Virus record (IMG/VR): IMGVR_UViG_3300042731_006804
Span: 39,119-103,118 of that record
DNA: 64,000 bases
DNA from: a virus
Strand: one strand, 5' to 3'
The position numbers and the translations under genes were made by a program. A model generated the notes under the pieces. It was given only the letters and a program-made list of their open reading frames with translations, did no database searches and was not told where the DNA came from. The stretch's first letter is position 1. Every line of letters starts with the position of its first letter. Shown piece by piece: positions 7,315-31,491 of this stretch.

Positions 7315-7635
7315 TTATTTTTTTCCTTTTCTACTCTCCCCTAATCTTCGACCTCGTTCCTTCAACGAGGCTATTTGCTCCTCAGTCATCTCTCGCTTAC
7401 AATCCTCCCACGTAACTTTGCCTTTATGTTTAGGATTAAATTGACGCCACCAAAAATTAGGCTCCAATTTTCGGTAAGGCTGATACTGATAAAACGGACA
7501 TTTTCTTGACCCACAATCTACCTTTCCGTCCGTCCAATGTCCCATACATTCCCAACACAAGGCTTCTCCGCATTCTTTCCTCGAAGGAGGTGTTTCGTAA
7601 ATTACCTCTACTGATTTAATTGGTGTCCGTTTCAT
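7315..7635 (-). CDS. Cysteine-rich conserved phage-type protein with N-terminal R-x-P-I tag
   Basis: The 106-residue protein starts MKRTPIKSVEV, the same short tag found on RuvC, the small-terminase-like protein, DnaB and terminase here. Residues 20-50 carry CGEALCWECMGHW, then VDCGSRKCPFYQYQPYRK, a set of five or six cysteines that likely bind zinc. The C-terminal half is W- and K-rich (NFWWRQFNPKHKGKVTWEDC). I believe similar proteins occur in other phages but cannot name a function. AAAGGATAAACAGT precedes the start. Confidence 0.75.
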   Translation of the reverse strand: MKRTPIKSVEVIYETPPSRKECGEALCWECMGHWTDGKVDCGSRKCPFYQYQPYRKLEPNFWWRQFNPKHKGKVTWEDCKREMTEEQIASLKERGRRLGESRKGKK

Positions 7636-7649
7636 ACTGTTTATCCTTT

Positions 7650-7916
7650 CTATTTTATAGGAATTCTTCTAATAGATTTCCTAATCATTTCTATTGGCCT
7701 ACTAAAATTCCATCTATAACAAAGCCATTCATCAAACAAATTATTCTGATCAACGGTCCATCGACCATTTTGTACTTGTCCAGTTTGAGCGCACCATACA
7801 ATGCGCTCATCCTTTATCCACCGATTATAAGACTCATTATATAACTGTAAAATTAATTCAGGCGCTAAATTAACCAATTTTGCATATAAGACTAATCGAA
7901 TATGGTATTCAGTCAT
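7650..7916 (-). CDS. Unrecognised 88-residue protein ending in RRIPIK
   Basis: A small soluble protein with several tryptophans (NRWIKDERIVWC, NGRWTVDQNNLFDEWLCYRW). Its last residues are SIRRIPIK, a C-terminal copy of the R-x-P-I-K peptide that begins the neighbouring gene and several replication proteins. Its start overlaps the stop of the metalloprotease gene by 8 bases. Function unknown, but the tail links it to the tag-bearing set. Confidence 0.7.
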   Translation of the reverse strand: MTEYHIRLVLYAKLVNLAPELILQLYNESYNRWIKDERIVWCAQTGQVQNGRWTVDQNNLFDEWLCYRWNFSRPIEMIRKSIRRIPIK

Positions 7917-8421: not shown

Positions 8422-8432
8422 TTTAGTATCCC

Positions 8433-9403: not shown

Positions 9404-9472
9404 CTCTATTTCCTTTACCTTCCGGCACCCTTCACCGCCCGCCTCAAGGGAGACAAGCGGGATGTGGGTCAG

Positions 9473-10401: not shown

Positions 10402-10571
10402 TTATTCCGCCGTTTTCTAAAAATGAATAATTGACGATCTTCTTCAATACAATTAATAACCTTTCTCCTATTATGGTCACAACACAACACTTCCTTATCA
10501 TCCTTTATAAACTTATACCTACATAAACCATCTAATTCCCGTTTTTTACAATCGCATTTCTCATCAAACAT
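10398..10571 (-). CDS. 57-residue cysteine-rich mini-protein
   Basis: This gene is too short for many gene callers. It starts at ATG 10571, sharing its first base with the last base of the terminase stop (TAATG), and stops with TGA overlapping the next ATG. The sequence begins MFDEKCDCKKREL, has CRYKFIKDDKEVLCCDHN in the middle and ends in a basic tail. The six cysteines and a histidine suggest a small zinc-binding fold. The double overlap on both sides strongly supports translation. Confidence 0.75.
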   Translation of the reverse strand: MFDEKCDCKKRELDGLCRYKFIKDDKEVLCCDHNRRKVINCIEEDRQLFIFRKRRNK

Positions 10572-12499
10572 TAAAAACCTCCTATTCCAAAATTATATTG
10601 ATCATCCAATCGCTTCATTTCTTGTAAAGCAATAATGCTATGTATCTCAGAACATCCATCAATACCTTCTCCAGCTATTTCTTGTAAAATATCTCTGTAT
10701 ATAGGATAATCGTATTCATTGCAAATAATACCATTTCCTTTCTTAATATTATTAATAACATATTTTTTCTTTTCTTCTAAGTCTGTATTAGATATCTTAG
10801 AATCAGTTACTATGGTATCATCAACTAAATTATGTCTACGAGGTTCAATCTCAACATCATCTCCAAAACTAAAGCCAAAAGCACCTCGTTTAATTGCTTG
10901 ATTACACAACCAAGTGGACATTACGGTGTCATCATGCTGACCTACTGATTGAACTTTACCGTCTAAAAAAGTCATTGATCTAAATTCATCAATCAATATA
11001 TCCGTTAATTCAATACTATGGGCATCTCCTCTAGGAATTCTAAATTTACCATTTTCAAACAATACACGTAATTCAGGAACACCAAATTCTAATGAATTTT
11101 TATTCTGTGCAGTAGTTACAAATTTATAAATAGGTAAATCAGTTTCTCTTATTAATTCATCTCCAAAAATTCGTTGCATTTGATTTGCTTCTAAAGTCAT
11201 TAATCCGGGATCATATATACGTCCCATTCTATTAATTTCAGATTGCTGTTCTCTATAAGGTAATCCTTTCTTTCGAAACATATCAATCAACCACCTATTC
11301 CCAAAGTTATCTAAACCTAAAATAATAATAACTGTATAATCTGCCTGAACAGTAGACGAAATGGCAAAGTCAACCCCGGCATAGGGAACAATCCCTTTAT
11401 CTAACCAAAATTGTAAAGGCATACCTAATTTTAAATTAAATTGTTCAACTGGACTACCTTTAAATAGACTAATTGGGAATAAACTCATTTCGTCGCTAAT
11501 CGGTGAAACTAAAAATTCCCTACCATATCTAATAAGTCCTATTTCGTCCTTTTTAGTAAGTAAACGCTCCAATGGATATCTATCTGACCAAAGAACATTA
11601 TTAATAATTTCTCCTGGATTAGATTCAGCTGGATAATGTTTAAATATATATTGTTTATTTTTTCGTAATTCTCCATACAAATCATTTATATGAAATGGAG
11701 TACCTACTACAATTATTTGCCCTGAAGGAGTGACCATGTTTGAAATAGCATTGAAGAAATAATCATTTTGTTTATTTCTAACTGTCTCACTCCAAGCAGT
11801 TTCGTCATTAAGCCCGTCATCTACTACAATCCATCTAGGATGAGCACCTCGAACACGAACACCAAAACCCCTAGCATATATTCTATGTCCATTTGCTAAT
11901 GTAATTTTTTTAGAACCCCATGAAGATTTCTTTTTAGGAACTAAGTATTGTAATTGAGGATTAGTCTCAATCTCAATCTTAATCATTTCTAAAAATTCAG
12001 ATGCCTGAGATTGTGTAGCTGAAAAAATAAACCCGCATTCCCCAGGATATTTAATTGCTTGTCTAATTGGGTAAGCAAAATCAAAAAAATAAGATTTGCC
12101 ATGATCTCGCGCGCTCAATATACAAATTCGATTATTATACGCTATTAACTCATCCCATTCAAGGTGATGGTCTCCAATTAAAAATTTACCGTTATAAGGA
12201 GGTTCAATAGGTCCAGTTAAAATAGAATCTGCAAAATAAGCAACAGATTCAAGGATCATTTGTTTATCTAATTCATTTAATCTTATCTCACATTCAGGAT
12301 TAATATCTTCTAAATCAAAATTAGATTCTTCCTCAGTTAAATCTTCTTCAACTATTTCATAATCAAAATTAGATTCAAGTGAGGCTAATAGTAATTCATA
12401 TGAATTAGCAATAGTGGTATTTCTATCTATAAAGGGAATAGCTGTCCGTTTAAAAGGACTAATTAAAGGAGTAGAATTTATTATAGGAATACGCTGCAT
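10571..12499 (-). CDS. terL: Terminase large subunit (packaging ATPase/nuclease)
   Basis: This motor pumps DNA into the prohead and cuts concatemers. At 642 residues it is of full length. The N-terminal ATPase has a Walker A-like SARDHGKS near residue 130 and Walker B IVVDDGLND near 226. The C-terminal RNase H-like nuclease has acidic residues in GVDFA (about 377), LEANQ (about 436) and QHDDTV (about 523). The start is ATG at 12499 in a TAATG overlap with the mini-gene upstream. Its N-terminus is MQRIPIINS, another R-x-P-I tag. It lies far from the head genes, next to small phage proteins, while a small-terminase-like gene is 2.5 kb upstream. Confidence 0.93.
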   Translation of the reverse strand: MQRIPIINSTPLISPFKRTAIPFIDRNTTIANSYELLLASLESNFDYEIVEEDLTEEESNFDLEDINPECEIRLNELDKQMILESVAYFADSILTGPIEPPYNGKFLIGDHHLEWDELIAYNNRICILSARDHGKSYFFDFAYPIRQAIKYPGECGFIFSATQSQASEFLEMIKIEIETNPQLQYLVPKKKSSWGSKKITLANGHRIYARGFGVRVRGAHPRWIVVDDGLNDETAWSETVRNKQNDYFFNAISNMVTPSGQIIVVGTPFHINDLYGELRKNKQYIFKHYPAESNPGEIINNVLWSDRYPLERLLTKKDEIGLIRYGREFLVSPISDEMSLFPISLFKGSPVEQFNLKLGMPLQFWLDKGIVPYAGVDFAISSTVQADYTVIIILGLDNFGNRWLIDMFRKKGLPYREQQSEINRMGRIYDPGLMTLEANQMQRIFGDELIRETDLPIYKFVTTAQNKNSLEFGVPELRVLFENGKFRIPRGDAHSIELTDILIDEFRSMTFLDGKVQSVGQHDDTVMSTWLCNQAIKRGAFGFSFGDDVEIEPRRHNLVDDTIVTDSKISNTDLEEKKKYVINNIKKGNGIICNEYDYPIYRDILQEIAGEGIDGCSEIHSIIALQEMKRLDDQYNFGIGGF

Positions 12500-12675: not shown

Positions 12676-12678
12676 AAT

Positions 12679-12963: not shown

Positions 12964-12975
12964 TGGCTTACCTCC

Positions 12976-13176: not shown

Positions 13177-13344
13177 CTATTTGCCTAAACCCTTTCCAAA
13201 TAAAAAAACTGAAAAATCCTCTTTTATTGGAACCCTATTTGTCTTTTTTCCGCAATTGCATTTCCATGCATGTATTTCATATACATGAATTACTATACCA
13301 CGTTTTTCGTCAAAATAACAATCCTTTTTAGGTTTCTTGTCCAT
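13177..13344 (-). CDS. 55-residue mini-protein coupled to the clamp gene
   Basis: The ATG at 13344 overlaps the clamp stop (TAATG). The sequence begins MDKKPKKDCYFDEKRG, contains WKCNCGKKTNRVPI with two cysteines in a CxC, and ends in FGKGLGK. The segment TNRVPIK is one more R-x-P-I-K match. Overlap on one side and adjacency on the other support a real gene. Its small size and position suggest an accessory of the clamp or of the terminase module, which is inference. Confidence 0.7.
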   Translation of the reverse strand: MDKKPKKDCYFDEKRGIVIHVYEIHAWKCNCGKKTNRVPIKEDFSVFLFGKGLGK

Positions 13345-14360
13345 TATTCATTAATTAATGGCCAAATATACATAGTAACATTATCACCTTTAATTACTAA
13401 AGGAGATGGATATTTATTATATACTAAGTCAACTACATCAGATTTAATATGCGATAGACATTGGTATATCATTACCCCATTAATTCCTACATTAAATGGA
13501 ACATCAGTAGATCCATCAATAATACCTACATTACCAATATAAGAATCTGAAATAGTATCAATTCCCAAAGCTTTTATTTCTATTTTTCTATCAATAATAT
13601 TAAAAGAAATCCCATTTATATCTGAAACATTAGAAGCTTGCTTAACTACATCTAATAATTGCTTTCTATTTATAATAGTATGGTAATCATATTTATATTT
13701 TATAGCTATATCTGTATTAGGATATTTCCTGTCACCTAAAGCAACTATACGAATAATACTATCTAACATAAAATATAAAAAGTAATCATCTTTGTATACT
13801 GCGCTACATTTCACTTTTTTAGGCCATTTATTAAACAATTCAATAGGAATAACTATGTCTCCATAAGGAAAATTCATTTCCTCTAACCTAACTAATCTGT
13901 TGCCATCAGTTGCTTCAATATAGTCTTTAGTAAAATGCAAATAAGGAAACCCATTTGCTTTAGAAGATTTAGAAGCACTAAAAATAACACTATTCAACTT
14001 ACATATATCCATACTAATAAATTGATAATCACTTTTAGGATAAATAGGCAATGGGTATACATCTGACAAGCAATCTAAATAGTAATAATTGGCTTTACCT
14101 ATAAGGCATACACGATTAGTTCCATCAAATGTTGTATTAAATTCTAAAGCCCCTTTATCCTTTACTGCTTCAGACACTATTGAAGCATCTACTAAACAAT
14201 CTAATAAAGGAGAATCTACGTAAGCAAAAGAAGAACATATTCCATCAGTAACAAATACCCCAGATGGATTTGATACAAACCTAATTTTATTAAAGACAGA
14301 TTTATTACTATCCTTCGTTAAAAGCGATAGCATGCCTTTCAAAGCAGGCTTTAATTCCAT
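13344..14360 (-). CDS. dnaN: DNA polymerase sliding clamp (DnaN-like)
   Basis: This ring protein holds the phage polymerase on DNA. The 338 residues read as a bacterial beta-clamp type. The middle domain has FSASKSSKANGFPYLHFTKD then IEATDGNRLVRLEEMNFPYG, with the IVIPIELF strand typical of the DnaN inter-domain region. The end VTMYIWPLINE corresponds to the C-terminal strand of DnaN. A GAGGGA ribosome site lies inside the overlapping upstream gene. T4 uses a PCNA-type clamp, so a DnaN-type clamp with a Pol I-type polymerase is notable. The upstream zinc DNA-binding protein overlaps it by 53 bases, suggesting linked function. Confidence 0.82.
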   Translation of the reverse strand: MELKPALKGMLSLLTKDSNKSVFNKIRFVSNPSGVFVTDGICSSFAYVDSPLLDCLVDASIVSEAVKDKGALEFNTTFDGTNRVCLIGKANYYYLDCLSDVYPLPIYPKSDYQFISMDICKLNSVIFSASKSSKANGFPYLHFTKDYIEATDGNRLVRLEEMNFPYGDIVIPIELFNKWPKKVKCSAVYKDDYFLYFMLDSIIRIVALGDRKYPNTDIAIKYKYDYHTIINRKQLLDVVKQASNVSDINGISFNIIDRKIEIKALGIDTISDSYIGNVGIIDGSTDVPFNVGINGVMIYQCLSHIKSDVVDLVYNKYPSPLVIKGDNVTMYIWPLINE

Positions 14361-14973
14361 GACATTCCCTCAATTGTTTTAGCCCAATACACTTCAATAA
14401 TAATTCTTTCGGTATCGCCCTACCTTTATCTAGAAATCCAGTAACAATATCTATATCTTGTAAAGGAAAATATAAAGAAACCATACAATATCTAAGGTGT
14501 TCAAAATTATATTTACGTAACCCTAACATATATAATAATCTATGATATTCATTATAACAATCCATACACAAACCCAAACCATAATGATTATTTTTTTGTG
14601 TATTACACCACATACATCTATATAATTTATGGCGTTTACTCCAAAAATCTTTACCAAGCCAAGTACATAATTCATCCATTTGATCTTCAGTAATTACAAA
14701 ACTTCCTTTAGTAGAAGTCCTACGCCATTTTTGAAGAAGAGCTTTAGCGGCTCGCCTTAACTGCGATTCACTATATCCAGTTAATTCCATCAATTGCCTT
14801 AGAGTATAAGAACCCCTAGTAAATCCCCCATTATACCCAATTCTAGATAATTTACGATATAAAGAAGAAATACTCCTATTACCGCTTTTTCTACAAAGCC
14901 ATTTAATACTGTTTGCTCCAATACCTTGAAGCAAATTCAATTCTTCTTTTTTAGTCCAAGGTCTCTTTTTCAT
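14308..14973 (-). CDS. Zinc-finger, SANT/Myb-like DNA-binding protein
   Basis: The N-terminus RPWTKKEELNLLQGIGANSI resembles a SANT/Myb-type helix set. It is followed by a second helix-turn-helix region, SYTLRQLMELTGYSESQLRR. Residues about 118-142 hold CMWCNTQK and CMDCYNEY, a zinc finger. The remainder is helical with many Leu and Cys. I read it as a sequence-specific DNA-binding protein. The overlap with the clamp gene and nearness to terminase genes leave several roles open: late transcription, replication initiation or packaging-site recognition. Confidence 0.72.
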   Translation of the reverse strand: MKKRPWTKKEELNLLQGIGANSIKWLCRKSGNRSISSLYRKLSRIGYNGGFTRGSYTLRQLMELTGYSESQLRRAAKALLQKWRRTSTKGSFVITEDQMDELCTWLGKDFWSKRHKLYRCMWCNTQKNNHYGLGLCMDCYNEYHRLLYMLGLRKYNFEHLRYCMVSLYFPLQDIDIVTGFLDKGRAIPKELLLKCIGLKQLRECHGIKACFERHAIAFNEG

Positions 14974-15625
14974 TTTTCTTTTTATTTAATTCCCTATTCG
15001 CTTTTATAATAGCAAAAGCCGCTTGCCTTAGAGCTTCCTTAGAATGAGTTATTTTAGGAACAGAAACCCCCTGCCTACTGTCAACTTTTTCAGATTCTTT
15101 ATCAGTTAATACTCCTCTAGTTATATCAGCAATTTCTTTCCTAGCATCAAATCTAAATTTCTCTAATCGCATTAAAGCATTTAATAAACCTTCATAAGAA
15201 TTAACAGTAGCTATGCTCATGTCTTCGAGCATTAAAAACACTTTTTCTGATATAGCGTCAGCGTTTTTTAATTGCTTAGTAATGGCTTGAACATGGGCCT
15301 GCCCAAGCTTCTCTAATACTTTTGTTTCTAATGCAATCCTATAATTTTCACGTTCTTCTACCCAATTATCCACCTTACTCCATTTAGTCAATGTAGAAAA
15401 CGCTACTTTATCAAATGGATAAACTTTAGATAAATCATTCAAAGAGATACCAGTTTGAGAAGTTACATATTTTATTTTTGCAAGACTTCTCAAACTTTTA
15501 TTGTTTAATTCTTCTATTGGAGATCCAAATTCAATAGAAGAAACTTTAGAACCAGGTAAAACCTTTATATTTACACCTGGATCATCAAAAGAAATCCTTG
15601 AATCTTTAATTGGCACCCTTTTCAA
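14951..15625 (-). CDS. Probable terminase small subunit
   Basis: It starts with TTG at 15625; this choice makes the N-terminus MKRVPIKDSR, matching the tag of other genes here, and no ATG is available before the conserved part. Residues 55-95 contain a helix-turn-helix-like region (YVTSQTGISLNDLSKVYPFD) followed by STLTKWSKVDNWVEERENYR, the pattern common in small terminase subunits. A long helical segment and basic C-terminus (NRELNKKKNEKE) follow. Such proteins bind the packaging start site and stimulate the large subunit. The assignment is by pattern; a replication regulator remains possible. Confidence 0.65.
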   Translation of the reverse strand: MKRVPIKDSRISFDDPGVNIKVLPGSKVSSIEFGSPIEELNNKSLRSLAKIKYVTSQTGISLNDLSKVYPFDKVAFSTLTKWSKVDNWVEERENYRIALETKVLEKLGQAHVQAITKQLKNADAISEKVFLMLEDMSIATVNSYEGLLNALMRLEKFRFDARKEIADITRGVLTDKESEKVDSRQGVSVPKITHSKEALRQAAFAIIKANRELNKKKNEKETLD

Positions 15626-16209: not shown

Positions 16210-16830
16210 CTATTCAACTCCTATATGACATTGATTCGCTAATTTTTTCACTTGTTTGATACGATGCTTTGCTAATCTGCGACCTTTAGGTGTTCCCCGG
16301 CAGCTACCTCCTTTAGAAGTATATGCTCGGATAGCTCCCTCTAATCCACCACATTTTTTAGATAAATAATTTATCCAATAAGAAAAACAAACTATTTGAT
16401 CATATCGTTCATTTAAATTAAGTTGTAATTGCCTACGACAAACCATTCTAATGGTACTATGAAACTGCATTATACCATGAGCCTTTGCTTTACCATTAGA
16501 AATATCCCCTCTAGCAAATTCATTAAAAGAAGATTCTTTATAGGCAAAAAATACAGCTAAAAAAGGCATAAAAGGTCTTTTATCATATATTGTAGATCCA
16601 TTTATAAGATCTTGTACTAATTGCTTACGAATAATTGAATTCTTTCTAAACTTACTATTAGGGGTATCCTCTGTTTTATGTAAAATCCAATCATTTAAAA
16701 CAATAAAAACACAAGCATTATTTAATTCTTCAGATCTAACAATTCTAATAAAACAAAGCAGCAAAATCAATGCTATAAAAAAACCACCTATTATAATTAA
16801 GAAATCTCTATAGTTATTATGTAGTCTCAT
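16210..16830 (-). CDS. Membrane-anchored lytic transglycosylase (SLT domain)
   Basis: I choose ATG at 16830 because GGAGGAATCA precedes it; a TTG at 16842 gives a four-residue longer form. Residues about 10-33 are a single membrane segment (FLIIIGGFFIALILLLCFI), so the enzyme is held in the inner membrane facing the periplasm. The SLT domain has the catalytic Glu in KESSFNEFARGD (about residue 98), then AHGIMQF and AIRAYTSKGG. These enzymes cleave the glycan strands of peptidoglycan with 1,6-anhydro formation. It could serve lysis as a signal-anchor endolysin. No holin is obvious beside it. It overlaps the RuvC gene by 14 bases. Confidence 0.85.
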   Translation of the reverse strand: MRLHNNYRDFLIIIGGFFIALILLLCFIRIVRSEELNNACVFIVLNDWILHKTEDTPNSKFRKNSIIRKQLVQDLINGSTIYDKRPFMPFLAVFFAYKESSFNEFARGDISNGKAKAHGIMQFHSTIRMVCRRQLQLNLNERYDQIVCFSYWINYLSKKCGGLEGAIRAYTSKGGSCRGTPKGRRLAKHRIKQVKKLANQCHIGVE

Positions 16831-17464
16831 TGATTCCTCCAATAAATACTCTATTTTTTTGTATTTCCTCTATTAATAAAACTGCATGTGCAGTAGCATC
16901 TGATACATGCTCACGTTTTGTTTTAGAATACTTATGAATTTCTTCATAAAAATTTGATACCTCACTCTCAACCGCTAATTGAATACCTTCTTTACTTTTA
17001 TCTTTTTTACCAAATCGTTTTTTAATGTCATTTGGAAAAAAAGGAGCAACATATAATTGGCGAGAAAGTGCCCAAAACAAAACACCACCATAAACTACAG
17101 CAGATTTCCAAGCATTATTCCCAATAATAATTTCACTTTTTTGATTTTTATAACGCATAACAGTATAAGATTCTATAGCAACCGCTGAAATAATCTGGCC
17201 TAATCTAGCATTATGAGAAAGGTATAAATGTTCTAATTCTTCATACACCTCTCTATACCTTCTAAAATCATCTATATTAGTTCTTAATTGATTAATAGAT
17301 TTTTTATCTTGCTTTTTAGTTTCAATATATTGACTACCTAAACAACAATATTGACCAGCATTATCTAAACCCACTATAGATAATCCAGTAGTTCTAATTC
17401 CTGGATCTACACCAAGCACTACTAAAGAATAATTCCTACCATATTTAATAGGTGTCCTAATCAT
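16817..17464 (-). CDS. ruvC: RuvC-like Holliday junction resolvase
   Basis: The 215-residue protein has the RuvC/RNase H fold signature: GVDPGIRTTG near residue 18 (first Asp), IESY near 95 (Glu) and HVSDATAHAV near 188 (third acidic residue). It would cut four-way junctions and branched replication intermediates, which is needed before packaging, as T4 gp49 does with an unrelated fold. The N-terminus is MIRTPIKYG, another tag copy preceding the catalytic strand. It overlaps both neighbours slightly and sits between SbcC and the transglycosylase. Confidence 0.88.
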   Translation of the reverse strand: MIRTPIKYGRNYSLVVLGVDPGIRTTGLSIVGLDNAGQYCCLGSQYIETKKQDKKSINQLRTNIDDFRRYREVYEELEHLYLSHNARLGQIISAVAIESYTVMRYKNQKSEIIIGNNAWKSAVVYGGVLFWALSRQLYVAPFFPNDIKKRFGKKDKSKEGIQLAVESEVSNFYEEIHKYSKTKREHVSDATAHAVLLIEEIQKNRVFIGGINETT

Positions 17465-17765
17465 TTTTATACAACTTTACATAGTCTTTTGTACGAATTC
17501 TTTTACATCTAAAAAACTTTATATTATCAGTTATAATCATAACCGGCCTATCTTTCCATTCTATGGGAAATTTTGATATTAATTCTTGTACACTATTGTG
17601 TGTCATACTAGAAGAAACACTAACAACAATAACATTGTCTAATTCTTGTTTAACTATTTGATGCTTTATATTTGTATCAAATGGTATTTCTAATTGCCCT
17701 TCGCTTGAAATAGGCTCTACTTGATATAAGACTGTTTGTTTCTTCTGTATATCTTTTGTCTTCAT
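17457..17765 (-). CDS. Unrecognised 102-residue protein overlapping sbcC
   Basis: The frame is open to 17798, but GGAGGA eight bases before ATG 17765 marks a better start (MKTKDIQKKQ). The first 89 bases overlap the 3' end of sbcC in another frame. The sequence is beta-rich (QELDNVIVVSVSSSMTHNS, RPVMIITDNIKFF) with a basic end. No family is recognised. Translational coupling to sbcC is likely. Confidence 0.65.
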   Translation of the reverse strand: MKTKDIQKKQTVLYQVEPISSEGQLEIPFDTNIKHQIVKQELDNVIVVSVSSSMTHNSVQELISKFPIEWKDRPVMIITDNIKFFRCKRIRTKDYVKLYKND

Positions 17766-19683
17766 TGAAAGTATCCTCCACAAGATTACTTTGTCCATTT
17801 TCTTTTATAACAGTAATTCTATTCTCAAACAAGGATTGAAAATCTGGATCATGATCTATTACGAATACAGAATCCTTATCCTTAGCCAATAACTGAAGCA
17901 TATCCATTACTGCATGCTTGCCATCGCTGTCTAAGTGTCTAAATATTTCATCTAAAATAAGTAAGTTATACTGCTTAGTAGAACGTCTAGAGATTATAGA
18001 CGAAAGTCCTAAGTCAATGGCTATTGAAATACGTTGTTTTTCTCCGCCACTCCAACTTCTATAATTTCTAGAAATTATGGAACCATCAGGTGCCCATCTA
18101 CAAATATTAACCTCGGGACTATTTATTATTTTTTTACCTCTACCTTTTTTATAAGAACCCAATTCTACCCAAATAGTGCCGTCTGTAAGAAGTTTTACCC
18201 AATAATTAATTGATGCATTAAGCTCACTCAATTTTGTATCAAGTATATAAGATTTTAGTCCTTTCGGTCCTAGTGCTTTAATCCAAAAAACATAGCACTC
18301 TTTTAAAGTCGTAATACTATCCAATTGTTGGTTTATCTGTAATAAATCATTATTGCATCTAGTTAATTTAAGGTTATCTTCTTGCTGTATAGATATCCAC
18401 GGATTTATCTTATCGGATTCTTCTTTAATACGATTTTGAATAAAAATAATATCATCCTGAATAGAATTTTTTAGCTTATTATTTTTGTCTATATCCGATA
18501 TAGCATTTAATTGTTCTTGTATTTCTGCCTTTAACTTAACAGAATTATCTAAAAACAAAGCTTTTTCTCTCTCTATTTTACTTAACTCTGTTCGAATAGA
18601 TCCATCGATTGTATCCAACCTATTTTTTATATTATGAAATTCTAACGTTTTTACAGAAAATAAATCCTCTAATTTACTATATTCCTTTTGTAAATGCTCT
18701 ATAGTAACTAACTGTCCACAACTATCACAATGATAATTACCATTATTCATAGTATAGTTCAAATACTGTTGTTTATTAATAATATCAGACAATTCTTTAT
18801 CTACAACAGCTAACTGTTTATTAATATCTAACTGCTGCGCTAAATAAGATTTATATATAGATTCATCTGGTTTACTTAAATTGGATACTTGAGTCTGTAA
18901 TTCTTGTATCCTGATTTCGCATCCAACCTTATCTAATAGTTGAATTGCATCATTTTTAATTTGTAATTCATTTTCCTTAATACGCAAAGATTCAATAGAC
19001 CTACTCTTACTATTTTCCCAATCTTGTATATTAACAATATAATTTTTACCTTTTAAACTTGTTATAATTTGATCAATGGTTTGTTTATTTCCTAATATAC
19101 GTTGCTCTGATAACAATAATTCATTTTGTTTGCACTTAACTTTCTCTAAAAGATTATCTATGAATTCAAGTTGAGATAATTTAGTTAATATTTCCATGCG
19201 CTTAGCATCAGTACTATCCGCATAATGCACTAAATTTGTTTGAGCAAATAAAATAGTAGAATGAAAAATTTCTCCATCAATACCTAATAAATCATAAATG
19301 ACTTTCTGTGTTTCTTTTATATCTAATTTAGTTAATTGATTATCGTCATTTATTAATAATTGTAAAACAGTGTTTCCTTTTCTAGACCTCTCCCTTCGAA
19401 TCAAAATCATATCACCAGTATCTGACTCTACCTGCACCTCTACATAACAATTTGTACAATTATCATTGATAATACTGTCTATATGATCTCCTCGAGGTAT
19501 TTTTCCATTAATACACCAGTCTAAACTATCAGGAATACAAGATTTACCTGCTCCATTAGAATCCATTTTAGGTTCATCTTTATTTATTCCTTGAATTAAT
19601 ACTAATCCTCTATCAATTAATGAAATAAAATGTTCACCTACATAAGAACCATAATTACACAATTTGATATTGAGTATCTTCAT
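17677..19683 (-). CDS. sbcC: SbcC/Rad50/gp46-like SMC-type ATPase
   Basis: This is the ATPase subunit of a recombination exonuclease complex with the SbcD-like product. Walker A is in DSNGAGKS near residue 42, two coiled-coil arms surround a zinc hook CDSC near 317, the ABC signature is WSGGEKQR near 546, and Walker B is LLILDEIF near 574. At 668 residues it is short-armed compared with bacterial SbcC (about 1000) and closer to T4 gp46. It overlaps the SbcD stop by 4 bases. It probably processes DNA ends for recombination-dependent replication and host DNA breakdown. Confidence 0.92.
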   Translation of the reverse strand: MKILNIKLCNYGSYVGEHFISLIDRGLVLIQGINKDEPKMDSNGAGKSCIPDSLDWCINGKIPRGDHIDSIINDNCTNCYVEVQVESDTGDMILIRRERSRKGNTVLQLLINDDNQLTKLDIKETQKVIYDLLGIDGEIFHSTILFAQTNLVHYADSTDAKRMEILTKLSQLEFIDNLLEKVKCKQNELLLSEQRILGNKQTIDQIITSLKGKNYIVNIQDWENSKSRSIESLRIKENELQIKNDAIQLLDKVGCEIRIQELQTQVSNLSKPDESIYKSYLAQQLDINKQLAVVDKELSDIINKQQYLNYTMNNGNYHCDSCGQLVTIEHLQKEYSKLEDLFSVKTLEFHNIKNRLDTIDGSIRTELSKIEREKALFLDNSVKLKAEIQEQLNAISDIDKNNKLKNSIQDDIIFIQNRIKEESDKINPWISIQQEDNLKLTRCNNDLLQINQQLDSITTLKECYVFWIKALGPKGLKSYILDTKLSELNASINYWVKLLTDGTIWVELGSYKKGRGKKIINSPEVNICRWAPDGSIISRNYRSWSGGEKQRISIAIDLGLSSIISRRSTKQYNLLILDEIFRHLDSDGKHAVMDMLQLLAKDKDSVFVIDHDPDFQSLFENRITVIKENGQSNLVEDTFNEDKRYTEETNSLISSRAYFKRRAIRNTI

Positions 19684-21733: not shown

Positions 21734-22819
21734 TTATTTATTGTTAGACATTACTGTATAATAAACCGATAGCAACTTATTAAACAATAAAGGATTTTCT
21801 CTACATTTATCTGCCAAACCATTCCAACCTTGAAATTTTATCACTTCACCATCGATATTAATCGCGCCCCAACTACCATCCACTACAATAATTTTTGCAT
21901 TTTTTAATGTTTCATAAATAGACCAAGTATTATCTATACCAATTCCAGAAATAAGTGCAAAATCAGTTTTTTTATAAGGATTTCCTAATCTATTTTTATC
22001 CAAAAATGCACCAACTTGTCTACCAATGTGTTCCCCTTTATAATTAATATATCCAAGATTAAATAAATTAATTCTAATAGTGGCTAAATGCCTAACTGCT
22101 GAACCTCCATACGTTTCTTTTTTTGTCACGTTCCCAAAGCCACCTTTGTTCTTACCAAACGCCTCATATTGGTGATTTGCAATTACAATAGCTACATTAG
22201 TTCTTCCTAATTTAGAAGGTAGTAAACGACAAGCTTCCTTTAATACCTTCGCCGCTCCCGCAGGTTTACCTTCAGCTTCTAATCGCTTTTTTACTTCATC
22301 CCTAGTTGCAGTCCCGCCTAACGCATCCCATCCAATTACTACAGGAACATCTGGAGCATTAATTGCCCACCATTCTACAGTATTATACATTTGAATCATT
22401 ACATTTTCTATATGTAATTCATCTCTTTTAAATTCTACACATTGCAGTTTATTAATATCCACCCCTATCTTACTCGTGTATCTAAAATCCCTTGCGGATT
22501 CCGAATCAAATAAAATAGGTACTCCACCTATAGATTGAACAGAAGCAAATAGATGATCTATAATGGTAGATTTTCCGATATGTTGTGGCCCGTAAATTTC
22601 CGTCACTCTACCTGTTGGAATACCTACACCATTTAATAAAGAATCTAAAGCAATACTTTGTGTAGATATGTATTGCTTAACATTAGCTAAGCAATCATCA
22701 TTAGAAAAATCTAATACCTCAACAATCCCATTACCTTTTTTCTTTATATAAGTCTGGTATTCAGCAATTGGATCTTTTTTAATAGGTTTAGGTTTCTTTC
22801 CAATCGAAATCCGCTTCAT
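21734..22819 (-). CDS. recA: RecA/UvsX-like recombinase
   Basis: The 361-residue protein has the RecA ATPase core: a Walker A variant GPQHIGKST near residue 76, the downstream region with PILFDSES, Walker B-like VVIGWDALGG, and loop 2-like residues near YGGSAVRHLATIRI. It forms the strand-exchange filament for recombination and recombination-primed replication. The N-terminus MKRISIGKKPKPIKK carries the tag in a weakened form. It starts TAATG-coupled to the single-strand-binding gene, next to UvsY-like and polymerase genes, a compact T4-like recombination set. Confidence 0.9.
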   Translation of the reverse strand: MKRISIGKKPKPIKKDPIAEYQTYIKKKGNGIVEVLDFSNDDCLANVKQYISTQSIALDSLLNGVGIPTGRVTEIYGPQHIGKSTIIDHLFASVQSIGGVPILFDSESARDFRYTSKIGVDINKLQCVEFKRDELHIENVMIQMYNTVEWWAINAPDVPVVIGWDALGGTATRDEVKKRLEAEGKPAGAAKVLKEACRLLPSKLGRTNVAIVIANHQYEAFGKNKGGFGNVTKKETYGGSAVRHLATIRINLFNLGYINYKGEHIGRQVGAFLDKNRLGNPYKKTDFALISGIGIDNTWSIYETLKNAKIIVVDGSWGAINIDGEVIKFQGWNGLADKCRENPLLFNKLLSVYYTVMSNNK

Positions 22820-24177
22820 TACTGATTACCATTATTTCCTCGAATAGAATCCTGAAGTTGCTGTAAAGTCACAGGTTGTTGTTGTACTAAAGGTGCCCGC
22901 GTATTCATTTGGTTCGCATTTTGAGCTTCATTTTTAATAGGACTACGATTAAATGGTACGTTAGGAGTAATAGGTTGCTGTGGTAAAGTATTCTGCTGAG
23001 AAGGCTGTGGGTAGTACGGAGGTCCATTATAATTTCCACTTGAGACAGGAGGAGGATTAATATTCTGTTGGGGTTGTGTTACTAAATTAGGAGTATTAGG
23101 TTGAGGAATAGGATTAGGCATCATTGGAGGAATTGTATTTTGCATTGAATAAGGCTGCTGTACTCCAGCATTAGGATATTGCATCGATGAAGATCCACCA
23201 ATATTTCCAAGTCCCATATCTATAATTGCATTTTGCATTTCTTCTTCACTTGGATGCTTAAATACAGATTCAAGGTCTATCAAATTAGACAATAATCCCC
23301 AAAATTGTTGCGGTAAAGGCTGTGGATCTTCATCAATGCAGCTATACTCTACATCAAACTTCCCTGGGCCAGTTTTTGTTTTCTTTATTCTAATAGGTCT
23401 ACCTAATTGTGGATCACAAATATTAACAGATCTTTCCTCTAATAAATTACCAATTGCTTTATGCAATGTAGCACCTGCTCGTAAAACAGCCGGTTGGGCT
23501 TGCCCATTATTAAGATGAATTTGTGGTGTATCTAATAACGCTACTTGATATAGAAAATTAGTATTAACGCTCCCCCAATCTTTCGCCCTTTTCTGTGTAC
23601 TAGGGTCAGAGCTTTCAATAGCTAATCTAGCTACTTGGCATATTTTACAACTATCAGCTCCCGGACAGCCTAATGACGCACCTTGAGGTTTACTGACTGA
23701 TTTCCAAAAATGGCTTAAAGCAATCGCAAATATATATTTACCAGGCGCCCATGGAGGTAAAATAAAAACCCTAATAACTGATTGATGTCCGATAGGGACA
23801 GATGCACTTTCCCATTTAGACTCATTATTTGGGCCTAAAAATTTAACAAAAGTATATTGAGATCCACCACGCCCCATAGACATTTTATGCTCTTGATATG
23901 CGCTCATCATCTGATGGGCATCAGGCATATTATAAACAGGCATTTGTCCAGTAAATTGCTGTGGCATATTTTGTGAGGGCATTTGTCCTTGCATAGGATA
24001 CGGCGATTGGATGGGATATCCTTGCTGTGGAAATCCTTGTGGCTGCTGATACACATTATTAGGGTACTGAGGAGCATTATTAGGGTACTGGGGCTGATTA
24101 TAACTTTGTTGATTATTAGGTTGGGCCTGTAAAGGATAATATTGAGGGGGCATATTTACGTTTGATGAATTACTCAT
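22819..24177 (-). CDS. gp32-like single-strand DNA-binding protein with long Q/P/N-rich tails
   Basis: I choose ATG at 24177 (AAGGAGAAAAAA upstream). The core, about residues 90-330, has VIRVFILPPWAPGKYIFAIA and a zinc-type CPGADSCKICQVARL near residue 171, then KDWGSVNTNFLYQVALLD and FDVEYSCIDEDPQPLP, matching phage gp32-type SSBs. It is flanked by two low-complexity arms very rich in Q, P, N, Y and M (for example NMPQQFTGQMPVYNMPDAH), together roughly 210 residues. The C-terminal arm includes NRSPIKNEA, a tag copy. gp32 normally has a short acidic tail; these long prion-like arms are unusual. It would coat single-stranded DNA and recruit the RecA and helicase machinery. Confidence 0.82.
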   Translation of the reverse strand: MSNSSNVNMPPQYYPLQAQPNNQQSYNQPQYPNNAPQYPNNVYQQPQGFPQQGYPIQSPYPMQGQMPSQNMPQQFTGQMPVYNMPDAHQMMSAYQEHKMSMGRGGSQYTFVKFLGPNNESKWESASVPIGHQSVIRVFILPPWAPGKYIFAIALSHFWKSVSKPQGASLGCPGADSCKICQVARLAIESSDPSTQKRAKDWGSVNTNFLYQVALLDTPQIHLNNGQAQPAVLRAGATLHKAIGNLLEERSVNICDPQLGRPIRIKKTKTGPGKFDVEYSCIDEDPQPLPQQFWGLLSNLIDLESVFKHPSEEEMQNAIIDMGLGNIGGSSSMQYPNAGVQQPYSMQNTIPPMMPNPIPQPNTPNLVTQPQQNINPPPVSSGNYNGPPYYPQPSQQNTLPQQPITPNVPFNRSPIKNEAQNANQMNTRAPLVQQQPVTLQQLQDSIRGNNGNQ

Positions 24178-24187
24178 TTTTTTCTCC

Positions 24188-24679
24188 TTAGATGGATAAA
24201 GGGGCACCATCTTCTGTATTGCGCCTATAAACCATAGACTTAATTATTTCTTTTTTAGATAACAATGCCTGTACAATGTACATTACGGTATTGTATGCTT
24301 CTTCAGCTCTTTCTACCTCTAGATAATAATTAGAATAAAAAGGATCTACTCTAATAAGTGAATCTATTTCTTTTTCAGTATGCTTTTCCCCAGTATTTCT
24401 ATACTTTAAATATTGTTGTGCTTTCCATATACGGTATTCTCTCGCCTTTATATCCCATACTCTTTTACATTGTGCACAGTACCTCCCCCAATGTCCAATT
24501 TTTGCCGATATTGTCTGGACTTCTTCTTGTAAGTTGCTTTCATCTATAAAAACTTCTTTAATGATATGCGCACCAGTTACTTCCCACCATGGGGAAGTAG
24601 TTCCATCCGGATTGATAGTATATATATTAAAATTAGATATATTTTGTAAACGTTGAACAAGGGCATTGTACATAGACAT
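24188..24679 (-). CDS. UvsY-like recombination mediator (tentative)
   Basis: The 163-residue protein is helical and charged: VQTISAKIGHWGRYCAQCKR, WDIKAREYRIWKAQQYLKY, then EVERAEEAYNTVMYIVQALL. The pattern and its position between the polymerase and gp32-like genes, next to RecA, resemble the UvsY family, which loads recombinase onto SSB-coated DNA. The single CAQC is not typical of UvsY. The call rests on pattern plus context. Confidence 0.6.
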   Translation of the reverse strand: MSMYNALVQRLQNISNFNIYTINPDGTTSPWWEVTGAHIIKEVFIDESNLQEEVQTISAKIGHWGRYCAQCKRVWDIKAREYRIWKAQQYLKYRNTGEKHTEKEIDSLIRVDPFYSNYYLEVERAEEAYNTVMYIVQALLSKKEIIKSMVYRRNTEDGAPLSI

Positions 24680-26662: not shown

Positions 26663-26677
26663 TCACTAGAATGGGAA

Positions 26678-27613
26678 CTATTTGAGACGCATAGTTAATG
26701 TAACCGTTCCAAGCGCATTACTAAACTCAGAAGAAAGAACTTCACCAGTAGTCAAAGGAAGAATCGATTCAACCGAAAAAACCGCACCCCGCTCCAATCC
26801 GGACACTGCTTTGCTCCTTTTGGACGTTTGCCCTGGCGAAGTTGCTTGGGGCGGATTCGTTGGCCCACTATTCGTTGCACTAGGCTGTACAGCGTTGGGG
26901 ACCGATGTCCTTTGTAGAGGTAATACCCCCGGCACACCACTACCCGATGGATTTCCCCCTGCCATTCCCGCAGCAAAACCATTCCCGGTAACAGGTTGCG
27001 TATTAATCTGTTCCGACGTTCCCGTTGCCACCGACGACGATTGACTTTGTTGGTATGCCTGAAGCTTTTTAGCCGAGATATTGCCGTAACCTCCACATAC
27101 GGCACAGGGATTCCCATCTGGACCAAATCCATTATTGCAATAAGGACAATCCATCAAATCTTTTGGCCGCTTTCCCTTTCGCTTTTTGCAAGGATCTGAT
27201 GCCTGCTGCGGTACTTGAGGAGTAGGCATTTGATGCGTAGGCATTTGAGGAGCTTGAGGGGGAACAGGGGGAGTAGGCGTTTGAACAGGAGGAGTAGACA
27301 TTTGCGGAACTTGAGGAGGAATAGGAGGAGTAGACATTTGAGGTGTTTGAACAGGAGGAATAGGTGCGGCTCCCCCCATAAACTCGTCATATTCCTGTTT
27401 TAACACCTGAATAGACTCAACAGGGATAGTTAATGCTTGAGAGAGCTGCTCATTCGTAATGCCAGGATTCATGGATACCACTTCGTGAAAAACCCCATGT
27501 AGTAATCCATCTTTGCATTTAGTAGCGGCCGAACACTCTTTACAAACTGGATCGACATTAGCCGCCCAGCCCTTGGTGTAACATTCAGAAAGTTGCATTT
27601 GATCTACTGTCAT
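26678..27613 (-). CDS. Low-complexity protein with two cysteine clusters
   Basis: The 311-residue protein has an N-terminal CKECSAATKC cluster with a small helical domain. Next comes about 70 residues of P/Q/T/M repeats built on units like TPPIPPQVPQM. A zinc motif CPYCNNGFG...CAVCGGYG follows (DnaJ-like CxxCxGxG pair), then a Ser/Gly/Thr/Asn-rich spacer and a short C-terminal beta segment. The DNA is richer in G and C than neighbours and has visible repeats near 27230-27360. Position next to the polymerase suggests a replication-associated role. The disorder parallels that of the gp32-like protein. Confidence 0.78.
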   Translation of the reverse strand: MTVDQMQLSECYTKGWAANVDPVCKECSAATKCKDGLLHGVFHEVVSMNPGITNEQLSQALTIPVESIQVLKQEYDEFMGGAAPIPPVQTPQMSTPPIPPQVPQMSTPPVQTPTPPVPPQAPQMPTHQMPTPQVPQQASDPCKKRKGKRPKDLMDCPYCNNGFGPDGNPCAVCGGYGNISAKKLQAYQQSQSSSVATGTSEQINTQPVTGNGFAAGMAGGNPSGSGVPGVLPLQRTSVPNAVQPSATNSGPTNPPQATSPGQTSKRSKAVSGLERGAVFSVESILPLTTGEVLSSEFSNALGTVTLTMRLK

Positions 27614-28150: not shown

Positions 28151-28369
28151 TTATACAATGTACTTTAATAATTTTTGAAAAATATCAGAAGAAATTTTAT
28201 ACCACGATGACTTTTCCCCCATAAGAAAGGTTTTTGCAGCACCTAACCCCATTGCAATAGATATCGCATAAAATGCATTTTTAGATATTCCAAGTCGATC
28301 AACAACTTGGCTAACCTCGTCTAAAACAACTTGCGTTAATCTAATATCTGTTTTTATCCTATTATCCAT
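28151..28369 (-). CDS. Ribbon-helix-helix (Arc/CopG-like) regulator
   Basis: The 72-residue protein has a strand IKTDIRLTQ followed by helices VLDEVSQVVDRLGISKNAFY and AISIAMGLGAAK, the Arc/CopG ribbon-helix-helix plan of a dimeric DNA-binding repressor. AGGAGTACTATA precedes the ATG. It lies between the primase and sigma-like genes, so regulation of nearby promoters or of the palindromic sites in the left arm is a reasonable idea, but unproved. Confidence 0.75.
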   Translation of the reverse strand: MDNRIKTDIRLTQVVLDEVSQVVDRLGISKNAFYAISIAMGLGAAKTFLMGEKSSWYKISSDIFQKLLKYIV

Positions 28370-29346
28370 TATAGTACTCCTAAAGTAGAAATATTATTAG
28401 CTAACCTAGAACAATTTGCCCTTATTATGTTTAAATCATTTCTAGAATAGTCGCCTGGATCTCCTTGTGGAAGAAAAACTACCCTTGTATTGAATATACC
28501 ACTCAATAAAGGAAGTACTTCGAACATTTCTTTTACGGCGCCAAAAGGCTCTTTATCAGAAGGACCATCCCACATTAAATCAATATTACGAACATTATGT
28601 TGACAAAGTTTCAATATTTGCTTTTCCGAAACATGCTTTCCAAAAGTACAAACTGCATCATACCCTGTATGAATTGCATCAATAGGACCTTCTGTAATTA
28701 CTACTCTATTCCAACGAGTAGCGTTTTCCAAATTAAATAAAACATCTTCTGTTCCAGCAACCCCAGAATCTTTTGGAGGATTAAGAGATTTCAAATATAT
28801 TTCTCCAGGTTGTGCATCCCACATAGCGCGTCCTTGATAAAAAATTAACTTGCCTTCCTCGTAAACTGGAAACATAAGTCTATTCCTATACCGCCCTCCA
28901 TCACAATAAAATAATCCAAAATAATAAACATCTTCTAAAGTTATACCCCTTTTGTAGCAATAAGGCAATATGCCGGTAATACTTTTAGAAAAAGGAGGAA
29001 ATGGTATTTCTTTTTCCTTAACAATACCTTCATCTAAATCAGTATAAGTAAACCCCTTTGTATTAATTCCTATATTTTCTTTAACAAATTGTTGAGCCAC
29101 TTGATAAGTAACTCTATCTAAAAGCATTACTAATTGAACTATATTGCCAGCACCTTTAATAGGTACGCGTTTACCGAATTCATTTCTTTTATACTCTTGA
29201 CATATCCAACAATGCCAAAGCTTTTTTGAAATATTTACTACCAATTTATCTCTATGACAAATAGGACAATTGAGTATCCATTCATCCGTTTTACAAGATA
29301 CAGGATTAAACCGCATAAGGTATTTTTCTAAATTAAACAATAGCAA
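28369..29346 (-). CDS. dnaG: DnaG-type primase
   Basis: It makes RNA primers for lagging-strand synthesis. The N-terminal CHC2-type zinc site has CPICHRD near residue 27 and CWICQEY near 45. A TOPRIM domain follows with VITEGPIDAI near 215 (catalytic Glu) and DLMWDGPSD near 255. The start could be TTG at 29346 or ATG at 29316; the TTG form keeps a helix before the zinc site. At 325 residues it lacks a helicase-binding C-terminal domain of bacterial size. Directly after the zinc site is GKRVPIKGAG, an internal tag match. It works with the DnaB-like helicase two genes upstream. Confidence 0.9.
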   Translation of the reverse strand: MLLFNLEKYLMRFNPVSCKTDEWILNCPICHRDKLVVNISKKLWHCWICQEYKRNEFGKRVPIKGAGNIVQLVMLLDRVTYQVAQQFVKENIGINTKGFTYTDLDEGIVKEKEIPFPPFSKSITGILPYCYKRGITLEDVYYFGLFYCDGGRYRNRLMFPVYEEGKLIFYQGRAMWDAQPGEIYLKSLNPPKDSGVAGTEDVLFNLENATRWNRVVITEGPIDAIHTGYDAVCTFGKHVSEKQILKLCQHNVRNIDLMWDGPSDKEPFGAVKEMFEVLPLLSGIFNTRVVFLPQGDPGDYSRNDLNIIRANCSRLANNISTLGVL

Positions 29347-30079
29347 CCCGTTTTATAACATTAGTCCAAATAACTTCTTTACTACCCGTATTTTTTGTAT
29401 TCCTAAACACTCCAAATTCTTTAAATGGTAACCAATTGGCACCATAATTTTCACATACTATTACTTGTCCACTTCTATTCAAACACCAATTACGTAAATC
29501 AATATAATCTATTTGCTTTCTTCCAAATTTATAATATTCACCTGGTTTATTATTATAAGGTGGGTCTATAAACCAAGTCACTTTTCCATCAAAATCTATA
29601 TCTTTATAAGATATATTATATACTTTCCAATGCCTTATAAAATTAACTTGATAAGCAATTCTACACCTAATATGTACACCCCAATGACTATTAGGACGAT
29701 CTCCCCGTTTAAACCAAGTAGTTGGAGATTTAGCAGGACGACTATCCCCTTTTTTAAGTAAAAAACCAATTAACCATTTAGCTTCTTGTGGAATACTAAA
29801 ATCATCAATATGATCTTCCTTCCCTAATATAGGGAGACTAAGTATTTCTTCACTAGAAACATGTATCAAATAATCCCATATACTATATATAATTGGATTT
29901 ATATCACACAAAATAACATTTTTCCAATAATACCTTACGCCATATCCAGCACTACCGGCAAATGGTTCAATTATAGTATCATATATAGGACTTGGATATT
30001 TAGGAGCCATCCTATACTTACCACCATAATAAGATATAAATGGTTTAAGGTTAATAGGCTTAATGCTTTTACAAATCAT
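29333..30079 (-). CDS. DNA adenine-N6 methyltransferase, D12 (Dam-like) class
   Basis: The order of motifs is that of the D12 class: ISYYGGKYRMAPKY near residue 15, the S-adenosylmethionine site EPFAGSAG near 38, and the catalytic DPPYNNKPGEYY near 171. Length 248 fits. It transfers a methyl group to adenine in a specific site. No paired restriction enzyme is present, so protection of phage DNA against host restriction, or marking of new strands, is likely. It overlaps DnaB and primase genes by a few bases. Confidence 0.9.
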   Translation of the reverse strand: MICKSIKPINLKPFISYYGGKYRMAPKYPSPIYDTIIEPFAGSAGYGVRYYWKNVILCDINPIIYSIWDYLIHVSSEEILSLPILGKEDHIDDFSIPQEAKWLIGFLLKKGDSRPAKSPTTWFKRGDRPNSHWGVHIRCRIAYQVNFIRHWKVYNISYKDIDFDGKVTWFIDPPYNNKPGEYYKFGRKQIDYIDLRNWCLNRSGQVIVCENYGANWLPFKEFGVFRNTKNTGSKEVIWTNVIKRVAIV

Positions 30080-31491
30080 TGTATAGGTGCCCTTACTTGT
30101 TGAATACCATGTTGGTAATTAGTTACAATTTTCCCAGTATTAATGGGCTTTCCTCTAAGGTCTCGTATAGTCATTGTATGAAAATCAGCATATACAGGAA
30201 TAACGATACCTGCCTCATTATCTCTATATAATTCGGCATACAAACGAGCTTGTTTCGCGTCTCTTTCTTCTTTAGTTTGATTAATACTGCCAATAAAATC
30301 TACTTTTTGAATCTTAGCTTGACAGTCCGCTATATTCTTAAAACTCAATAAACCAGCATCTGTTTCAATATCCCCTTTAGGTCTTTGGGGCTGAGAAGCT
30401 GTCCAAATAGAATATCCTCTATTTGCTAAAGATTTTATGTCTTGGTATGCTGCCCGTTGTTTAGCTTCCTCTGAATTGAATTTGCCTCTTGCGCTTAATA
30501 AATCACCGTAATCAATAATCACTAATGAAGGAATCCAATTATGTAATCTTTTTAAATCATTTATTTCTCTATGAATATCTTCTATATTGTAATCCCATCG
30601 TTCAGTAAATGATCTAATTACTAAACGCTTTTGTAGCATTTGATATTCTGAACAAAGGGCTTTATATACATCAGCATTGAACTGTCCACGCTTAACTAAT
30701 CCATAATTTTCATTTGCAAAAATAGCGTCATATCGATTAGCAACTAATGATCCAGAACCCTCGAGTGGAATGTGTAATACGTTTTTTAAAGACCTACGAA
30801 CAGCTTGCACTCCGTGATTCACTAATAAAGTAGTTTTTCCACGTTTAGAATATCCAATCCATAGCCCTACCTCGCCTAAGCTCAAACCTCCATCTAACAC
30901 CTTGTCTAACAATACTATACCAGTAGAAGTAGAATCCATTAATGGATCAAATGACAAGCGCTCCATAGTTCTTTGTTGAAAACTCTCAAAGAACCATTGC
31001 CTATCTTCTGTCTCCCAACTAGTTTTAGAAATACTATCCATAGCTTTGGACATATGGTCGTAAACCTCATTCATTTTACTAGTATTCCAAAGCTCAACAC
31101 TTTCCTGAAAAGCCCTATGAAATATATTCCTTTTAATAAATTCTAATGTTTGATCTTTTAACCACTCAATTGAAGAAACATCCGCTTCCTGAACTCCTTC
31201 TAAAGTTATCCTATATAACTCCCTACTAATTCCTTGAATATTCTTTGTCTCTTCTAATAATATTCTCAAATTAGGAATAGCGTTATACTTATTTCGGTAT
31301 TCAAGGATATAATTATAAGCCCACATCAATACTTCATTCTCAAAGTATTCTACCTTTAAATGCGGGATTACCACTGAAGCAAAGCTATAGTCTTGTGTAA
31401 TTACCAATAAAAGGCTTTTTTGGTAATCTACTCCAAATGGAAAAGTTACTATATTAGAATTTGGTCCAAATGAAATTGGAGATCTATTCAT
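30076..31491 (-). CDS. dnaB: DnaB-like replicative helicase
   Basis: The N-terminal 150 residues are helical (primase-interaction type). The RecA-like motor has Walker A GYSKRGKTT near residue 214 and Walker B LVIIDYGDLL near 324, with TASQPQRPKGD further on as the DnaB-type motif. It unwinds the fork as a hexamer. The first residues are MNRSPISFG and the last are QVRAPIQ, so the R-x-P-I peptide is present at both ends, which is striking. Genes for a loader-like protein and methyltransferase overlap it. Confidence 0.92.
   Translation of the reverse strand: MNRSPISFGPNSNIVTFPFGVDYQKSLLLVITQDYSFASVVIPHLKVEYFENEVLMWAYNYILEYRNKYNAIPNLRILLEETKNIQGISRELYRITLEGVQEADVSSIEWLKDQTLEFIKRNIFHRAFQESVELWNTSKMNEVYDHMSKAMDSISKTSWETEDRQWFFESFQQRTMERLSFDPLMDSTSTGIVLLDKVLDGGLSLGEVGLWIGYSKRGKTTLLVNHGVQAVRRSLKNVLHIPLEGSGSLVANRYDAIFANENYGLVKRGQFNADVYKALCSEYQMLQKRLVIRSFTERWDYNIEDIHREINDLKRLHNWIPSLVIIDYGDLLSARGKFNSEEAKQRAAYQDIKSLANRGYSIWTASQPQRPKGDIETDAGLLSFKNIADCQAKIQKVDFIGSINQTKEERDAKQARLYAELYRDNEAGIVIPVYADFHTMTIRDLRGKPINTGKIVTNYQHGIQQVRAPIQ

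Follow-up and report, generated by a model that had tools for sequence, protein, structure and literature searches.

A recurrent peptide on DNA-transaction proteins

The window analysed here comprises 64,000 nucleotides, bases 39119-103118 of the 103,118-base virus record IMGVR_UViG_3300042731_006804, and derives from an uncultured virus of bacteria. It encodes a series of otherwise unrelated proteins that share a short peptide of the form R-x-[PA]-I, mostly as [KNQ]-R-x-[PA]-I-[KQP], in which Ala may stand for Pro. Genes were called by simple open reading frame (ORF) rules, which placed the start of the small-terminase-like protein (TerS) at a TTG codon; 86 ORFs were scored, and the minus strand carries nearly all window genes. 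The replication set is T4-like in content, with a DnaB helicase, primase, family-A polymerase, UvsX, a UvsY-like protein, a gp32-like single-stranded DNA-binding protein (SSB), SbcC/SbcD, RuvC and a clamp that matches beta clamps. The peptide, hereafter called the tag, was located at the following sites, all on the minus strand.

31471-31488, minus strand: NRSPIS, N-terminus of the DnaB-like helicase (30076-31491)
30079-30096, minus strand: VRAPIQ, C-terminus of DnaB
17444-17461, minus strand: IRTPIK (MIRTPIK), N-terminus of the RuvC-like resolvase (16817-17464)
15605-15622, minus strand: KRVPIK (MKRVPIK), N-terminus of TerS (14951-15625, TTG start)
12479-12496, minus strand: QRIPII (MQRIPII), N-terminus of the large terminase TerL (10571-12499)
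12434-12451, minus strand: KRTAIP, second TerL tag, residue 18
17689-17706, minus strand: KRRAIR, near the C-terminus of the SbcC-like protein (17677-19683)
7615-7632, minus strand: KRTPIK (MKRTPIK), N-terminus of a 106-aa Cys-rich protein (7315-7635)
7653-7670, minus strand: RRIPIK, C-terminus of an 88-aa protein (7650-7916)
13222-13239, minus strand: NRVPIK, in a 55-aa protein (13177-13344) adjoining the clamp gene
22933-22950, minus strand: NRSPIK, C-terminal arm of the gp32-like SSB (22819-24210)
29155-29172, minus strand: KRVPIK, tag-like, in the zinc-domain loop of the primase (28369-29346)
22799-22816, minus strand: KRISIG (MKRISIG), weak form, N-terminus of the UvsX/RecA-like recombinase (21734-22819)
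29336-29353, minus strand: KRVAIV, C-terminus of the D12-class adenine methyltransferase (29333-30079)
35449-35466, minus strand: KRKAIK, C-terminus of a GmrSD_N-domain protein (35440-36057)

An earlier note on this DNA had described the peptide as R-x-P-I and proposed that it is a docking motif. Every peptide named there was recovered where it had been placed, including the weak RecA form MKRISIG. The pattern itself was correct but too narrow, as it missed the Ala form (KRVAIV, KRKAIKTK, KRRAIRNTI and the TerL copy KRTAIP).

Across the whole genome we counted 41 copies of R.[PA]I, 10 of them no more than 20 residues from an N-terminus, 8 equally close to a C-terminus and the others internal. 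Terminal tags were carried by DnaB, RuvC, SbcC, TerS, TerL, the D12-class methyltransferase, the GmrSD_N protein, an MmcB-like protein and small uncharacterised proteins. No tag was found at any end of the identified structural proteins, and the R.PI matches in the tail module were internal. DnaB and TerL each carry two tags per chain. The tag of the methyltransferase, whose nearest match among annotated phages is in a 735 kb huge phage (44%), sits on a tail that extends past the end of two related enzymes. Tag position and tail length vary, in agreement with flexible ends or linkers. The model of DnaB was weak (pLDDT 56 overall), with pLDDT below 50 at residues 1-16 and 364-471.

Enrichment over shuffled proteins

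Expected counts were derived from within-protein shuffles. In the 86 window ORFs, R.PI was observed 13 times against 2.6 expected (p~4e-6) and R.PIK seven times against 0.16 (p~4e-10). N-terminal R.PI, with the motif starting in the first five residues, was found five times against 0.05 expected, in all five cases at residue 3. C-terminal R.AI was found four times against 0.11, including KRRAIRNTI of SbcC, KRVAIV of the methyltransferase and KRKAIKTK of the protein at 35440. Related control motifs showed no excess (R.[PA]V, 1 against 4.5; R.[PA]L, 6 against 6.4; K.[PA]I, 10 against 9.0), and the reversed control I[PA].R gave 10 against 6.2 expected. Arg and Ile are required in the motif, and Ile is preferred over Val and Leu. 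The control counts also rule out R.P[V/L] as an equal form in the clade that carries the tag; where Val does occur, it is confined to a few weakened copies and to aligned DnaB ends from remote relatives. A few fixed residues recur above chance in unrelated proteins, as is generally expected of docking motifs.

The Arg codon differs between copies (AGA, AGG, CGT, CGG and CGC), and the remaining codons vary too. This rules out a coding DNA repeat and recent DNA duplication as the origin of the copies; together with the control counts, it shows that selection acts on the peptide.

When every gapped three-residue pattern at the protein ends of the entire genome was scored without bias, KR..I, R.PI and R..IK ranked first to third, with observed values of 9e-8 and 2e-7 against 1e-6 for the best pattern among 40 shuffles. 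When other phages were scanned, some end patterns also reached p 1e-7 or lower, owing to composition or homology. The discovery scan alone is therefore not decisive, and the case is carried by the hold-out region and the relatives.

Recurrence in the hold-out region

The hold-out consisted of 39 kb of the same genome that had not been seen when the earlier note was made; the Ala form had already been noticed at window termini before this region was scanned for it. R.[PA]I occurred 16 times against 3.9 expected, R.[PA]I[KQP] eight times against 0.74, and N-terminal R.[PA]I three times against 0.08. The three N-termini were MKRVAIK (150 aa), MMKRVAIK (70 aa) and MNRIPIQ (185 aa), the last in a member of the MmcB-like DNA repair family. 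The two small MKRVAIK-type proteins are encoded on either side of genes for a sigma factor and a response-regulator-like protein (L006:5865-8007).

Further copies were found in a 1521-aa protein (L151:597-5162, minus strand) that combines SNF2 helicase and eukaryotic-type topoisomerase I (topoisomerase IB) domains. Its linker holds four tags (REPIK, KRVAIP, TRVAIK and KREAIK) alternating with three AT-hook cores (RGRP). A separate segment, KA.FIGP.GGKWA..EHTIP.K, is present in two copies here and in a single copy in a 766-aa protein encoded close to the portal gene (L007:6244-8544).

Conservation and turnover in relatives

Few relatives exist for a comparison of conservation. A megablast search of 24 kb against 50,697 annotated phage records returned no close relative, and the best terminase match among annotated phages was Bacteroides phage DAC19 (TerL, 35%). 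A near-identical, permuted record, G001 (IMGVR 3300031369_000001, 102,614 bases), keeps most tags, among them LKRVPIK of TerS, the second TerL tag (KRIAIP), RRIPIKQKG of the 88-aa protein, the KRKAIKN end of the GmrSD_N protein and those of the Cys-rich protein (7315-7635), the 55-aa protein (13177-13344) and the SSB arm. It has lost one of the four SNF2-topoisomerase linker tags (QEPVK) and has no methyltransferase gene at all.

A more diverged relative, L011 (IMGVR 3300023198_000884, about 28-67% identity by protein), has the tag at corresponding ends although its tails have diverged, as in DnaB (MNRVPIN) and TerS (MKRKPIK). Its RuvC begins MIKRVPI, directly followed by a four-residue indel, and its SbcC ends RKRIPIRKPIS, which is stronger than the window copy. 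It has gained RSPIL where the window protein at 26678 has RGAVF, and it carries weakened copies in the primase loop (RKVPV), at the RecA start (KHHPV, in KHHPVS) and at the DnaB C-terminus (KAPL, with RQPI upstream). In L011 alone, N-terminal copies numbered three against 0.05 expected and C-terminal copies two against 0.07. Elsewhere, the L145 DnaB (58% identity) keeps its N-terminus in register as MQRNPIV, the L005 TerL (about 56%) starts MSDGEVVRTPIPARTPVRE, a double copy as in the window TerL with RTPV as the second copy, and the G004 SbcC ends RRGILRKGVIRK. Judged from these alignments, in relatives of about 43-67% identity, the tag is conserved against diverging flanks at the N-termini of DnaB, RuvC and TerS and the C-terminus of SbcC in L011, at the DnaB N-terminus in L145 and at the TerL N-terminus in L005. 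The shifted DnaB C-tail of L011, together with the strengthened copies on its SbcC and its 26678 homologue, shows what appear to be signs of motif turnover.

All seven aligned DnaB proteins have R-x-[PSQ]-[IV] within a variable N-terminal tail, in degenerate form in four beyond L011 and L145. At the other end, a linker of variable length leads in six of them to a terminal peptide resembling [RKL]-A-[PASV]-[ILV]. The C-terminal ends in relatives read KAPL, KASL, KAAI, LAPI and RAVV; the primase loop in relatives reads RKVPV, KRIPV and KKRAV. The idea that the motif is general to phages of this type was rejected, because no end excess was found in DAC19, two gut contigs, the GC-rich genomes G002, G004 and G005 or the pooled other contigs. 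Given this lack of excess in remote relatives, the strict motif belongs to one clade, and a degenerate ancestor or remnant of it can be seen on DnaB.

A probable docking peptide

The motif and its conservation, the sites it occupies and its restriction to Arg and Ile were observed directly. From these we infer binding to a single hub: the tag is probably a client-side docking peptide, that is, a short linear motif for one shared partner. A fixed Arg and a fixed Ile around Pro or Ala, placed at termini or linkers of unrelated proteins, correspond to the anatomy of a docking peptide, and the strict choice of Ile over Val and Leu points to a protein pocket rather than a DNA contact. Two copies each on DnaB and TerL and four on the SNF2-topoisomerase protein would provide avidity for a multi-copy partner.

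Under this docking reading, disordered ends or linkers of phage DNA-transaction proteins would display the tag. The clients would be the helicase, RuvC, SbcC, both terminase subunits, the recombinase, SSB, the methyltransferase, the SNF2-topoisomerase IB protein and several small uncharacterised proteins. Arg, through its charge, and Ile, as the hydrophobic residue, would enter an acidic and hydrophobic pocket of one multi-copy partner on phage DNA, and weak, repeated contacts would collect the enzymes at the fork and pass the DNA on to packaging. A bolder version, possible and on the whole rather doubtful, is that one peptide code directs most DNA-transaction proteins to one hub encoded by the phage. 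Replication, recombination, modification and packaging would then form one tethered factory, and a six-residue tag would have been acquired again and again as the code spread, among others by the accessory methyltransferase. Two candidate hubs encoded in the window have no R-x-[PA]-I tag of their own.

13344-14360, minus strand: beta-type sliding clamp (PHROG 947, DNA polymerase processivity factor; phmmer to DnaN clamps, E=1.5e-4)
24188-24679, minus strand: UvsY-like protein (PHROG 231, weak, E=9e-5)

Replication enzymes are known to be brought together by docking motifs in the cases of clamps, PCNA, RPA and bacterial SSB. The beta-clamp binding motif (CBM), Q-aliphatic-x-[L/M]-[F/L] or a six-residue form, sits at N-termini, C-termini or loops of unrelated DNA enzymes that dock on one ring (PMC11139829). 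The tag likewise occupies N-termini, C-termini and loops, and the phage encodes a beta-type clamp; however, R-x-[PA]-I has no Gln, aromatic residue or [L/M][F/L] core and does not fit the CBM definition, and the replicative family-A polymerase has neither a terminal tag nor a CBM-like match. With the PIP box of PCNA clients it has in common that one motif, placed in disordered regions, serves many proteins of replication and repair; its sequence is different, however, and no PCNA-type clamp was recognised in this phage. The tip of E. coli SSB and the A-domain of T4 gp32 also let one hub collect helicase, recombinase, nuclease and primase. In those systems, however, the peptide or acidic domain belongs to the SSB and the pocket to its clients, while here the clients carry the peptide; the polarity of T4 gp32, a hub through its acidic A-domain (PMC3016280), is thus opposite to that of the tag model. 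The T4 gp17-gp55-gp45 coupling similarly links terminase to clamp-associated machinery (PMC9026906), but it runs via gp55, for which no counterpart is shown here, and the tag sequence is unrelated. A limited literature search of open-licence papers found no earlier description of the motif, and exact strings gave unrelated papers only.

The interpretation in the earlier note is supported in part. The motif is far more frequent than in shuffled controls (the counts for R.PI and R.PIK given above), and the loss in close relatives that the note would have taken as a refutation was not seen, since the motif mostly stays with the conserved proteins in the nearest relatives. It recurs at ends and linkers of DNA-transaction proteins, is kept in relatives and is absent from unrelated phages, as would suit a docking motif. 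Two of the copies cited in the note are less telling: the copy in the zinc-domain loop of the primase may be structural, and the SSB-arm tag is lost in L011, the nearest diverged relative. R-x-[PA]-I was not found at the ends of the family-A polymerase, the clamp, SbcD or the UvsY-like protein. Against the docking reading, the tag resembles no known clamp-binding motif, and it is enriched only in a narrow clade, represented by two near-identical genomes, one contig of 17 kb and single genes from two short contigs.

As to the partner that a docking peptide would require, we tentatively favour another phage protein. The phage beta-type clamp is a possible hub that we hold to be a little less likely. 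In its favour, it forms a ring on DNA and has a pocket for peptides, and T4 terminase is tied to clamp-associated late transcription (PMC9026906); against it, the family-A polymerase has no terminal tag. The clamp start MELKPAL and EKRGL near the polymerase end fit only a much looser pattern, and the single-chain clamp model (pLDDT 31, from two near-identical rows) was unusable. A host protein is an unlikely hub, and the SSB core is less likely again, because SSB is itself tagged and has a different conserved C-terminal tip. That tip reads TLQQLQDSIRG, with SLVQLQQAISG and ALAALQQKLMG in relatives (pattern L..LQ..[IL].G), and is a separate candidate interaction peptide.

Alternative readings

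The best surviving alternative, though an improbable one, is that the tags are signals for a host AAA+ unfoldase such as ClpX, which would remodel or degrade phage DNA complexes on schedule. The MuA signal for ClpX (RRKKAI) likewise has basic residues followed by Ala-Ile on a flexible tail of a phage DNA protein; it is listed among the C-terminal degrons of ClpX, which recognises N-terminal signals as well (PMC8138137). Look-alike ends are present in KRRAIRNTI, KRKAIKTK and KRVAIV, and the L120 DnaB ends RKAAI. However, the MuA signal lies at the extreme C-terminus, whereas most copies of the tag are at residue 3 from the N-terminus, close to C-termini or within internal linkers, often with Pro. 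An exact [RK]-x-[AP]-[IV] ending is found on none of the genome's proteins, the Pro form at residue 3 is unlike any listed ClpX signal, and the internal copies (four in the SNF2-topoisomerase linker, one in the SSB arm) do not fit such a signal.

We give marginally less credit to the proposal that the tags are small AT-hook-like DNA contacts that raise DNA affinity without a protein partner. The tags are indeed short, basic and located on DNA enzymes, and those in the SNF2-topoisomerase linker alternate with AT-hook cores. A DNA contact would nevertheless not need the strict preference for Ile over Val and Leu, and several copies have a single basic residue (MNRSPIS, VRAPIQ and MQRIPII).

It is very unlikely that the pattern is a statistical accident of post hoc motif choice or reflects translation constraints at gene starts, where the first codons are rich in Lys and Arg. 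The motif was indeed picked post hoc in the earlier note, and the scan of other phages likewise yielded end patterns at p 1e-7 or lower. Yet the motif was replicated in the unseen part of the genome and at aligned positions of diverged relatives, the control motifs showed no excess, and start-codon effects cannot yield C-terminal or linker copies.

Least credible of all is that the tag, instead of docking on an enzyme-like hub, sorts proteins into a phage compartment or condensate: many DNA-transaction proteins and no structural proteins carry the tag, and the long, Tyr/Gln/Pro/Asn-rich N-terminal tail of SSB (22819-24210) may be of the condensate-forming kind, but the polymerase, clamp, SbcD, UvsY-like protein and the helicase at 32812 have no terminal R-x-[PA]-I tag, and a shell protein was not recognised, though no specific search was made.

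Returning to the docking peptide, a motif shared by replication, recombination and modification proteins and both packaging subunits of one phage would offer a handle on the link between fork and packaging. New members can be sought from sequence by R-x-[PA]-I at residue 3 or within the last ten residues. The hub, if found, would be a single point for studying or blocking the whole replication programme.

Other features

A block related to the window (L146:7289-11380), with DnaB (56%), helicase and two neighbouring family genes, lies within a metagenome-assembled genome (MAG) 'chromosome' of Ca. Latescibacterota (CP070677.1). This genome gave no match to terminase or SbcC and, for the polymerase, a match of host type only, and a TerL search of the bacterial bins containing L145 and L146 found no terminase. 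The block is either a provirus remnant or an assembly chimera. Finally, the early region of the window encodes a DnaJ-like protein (5240-6064) with a J domain and zinc-finger repeats.

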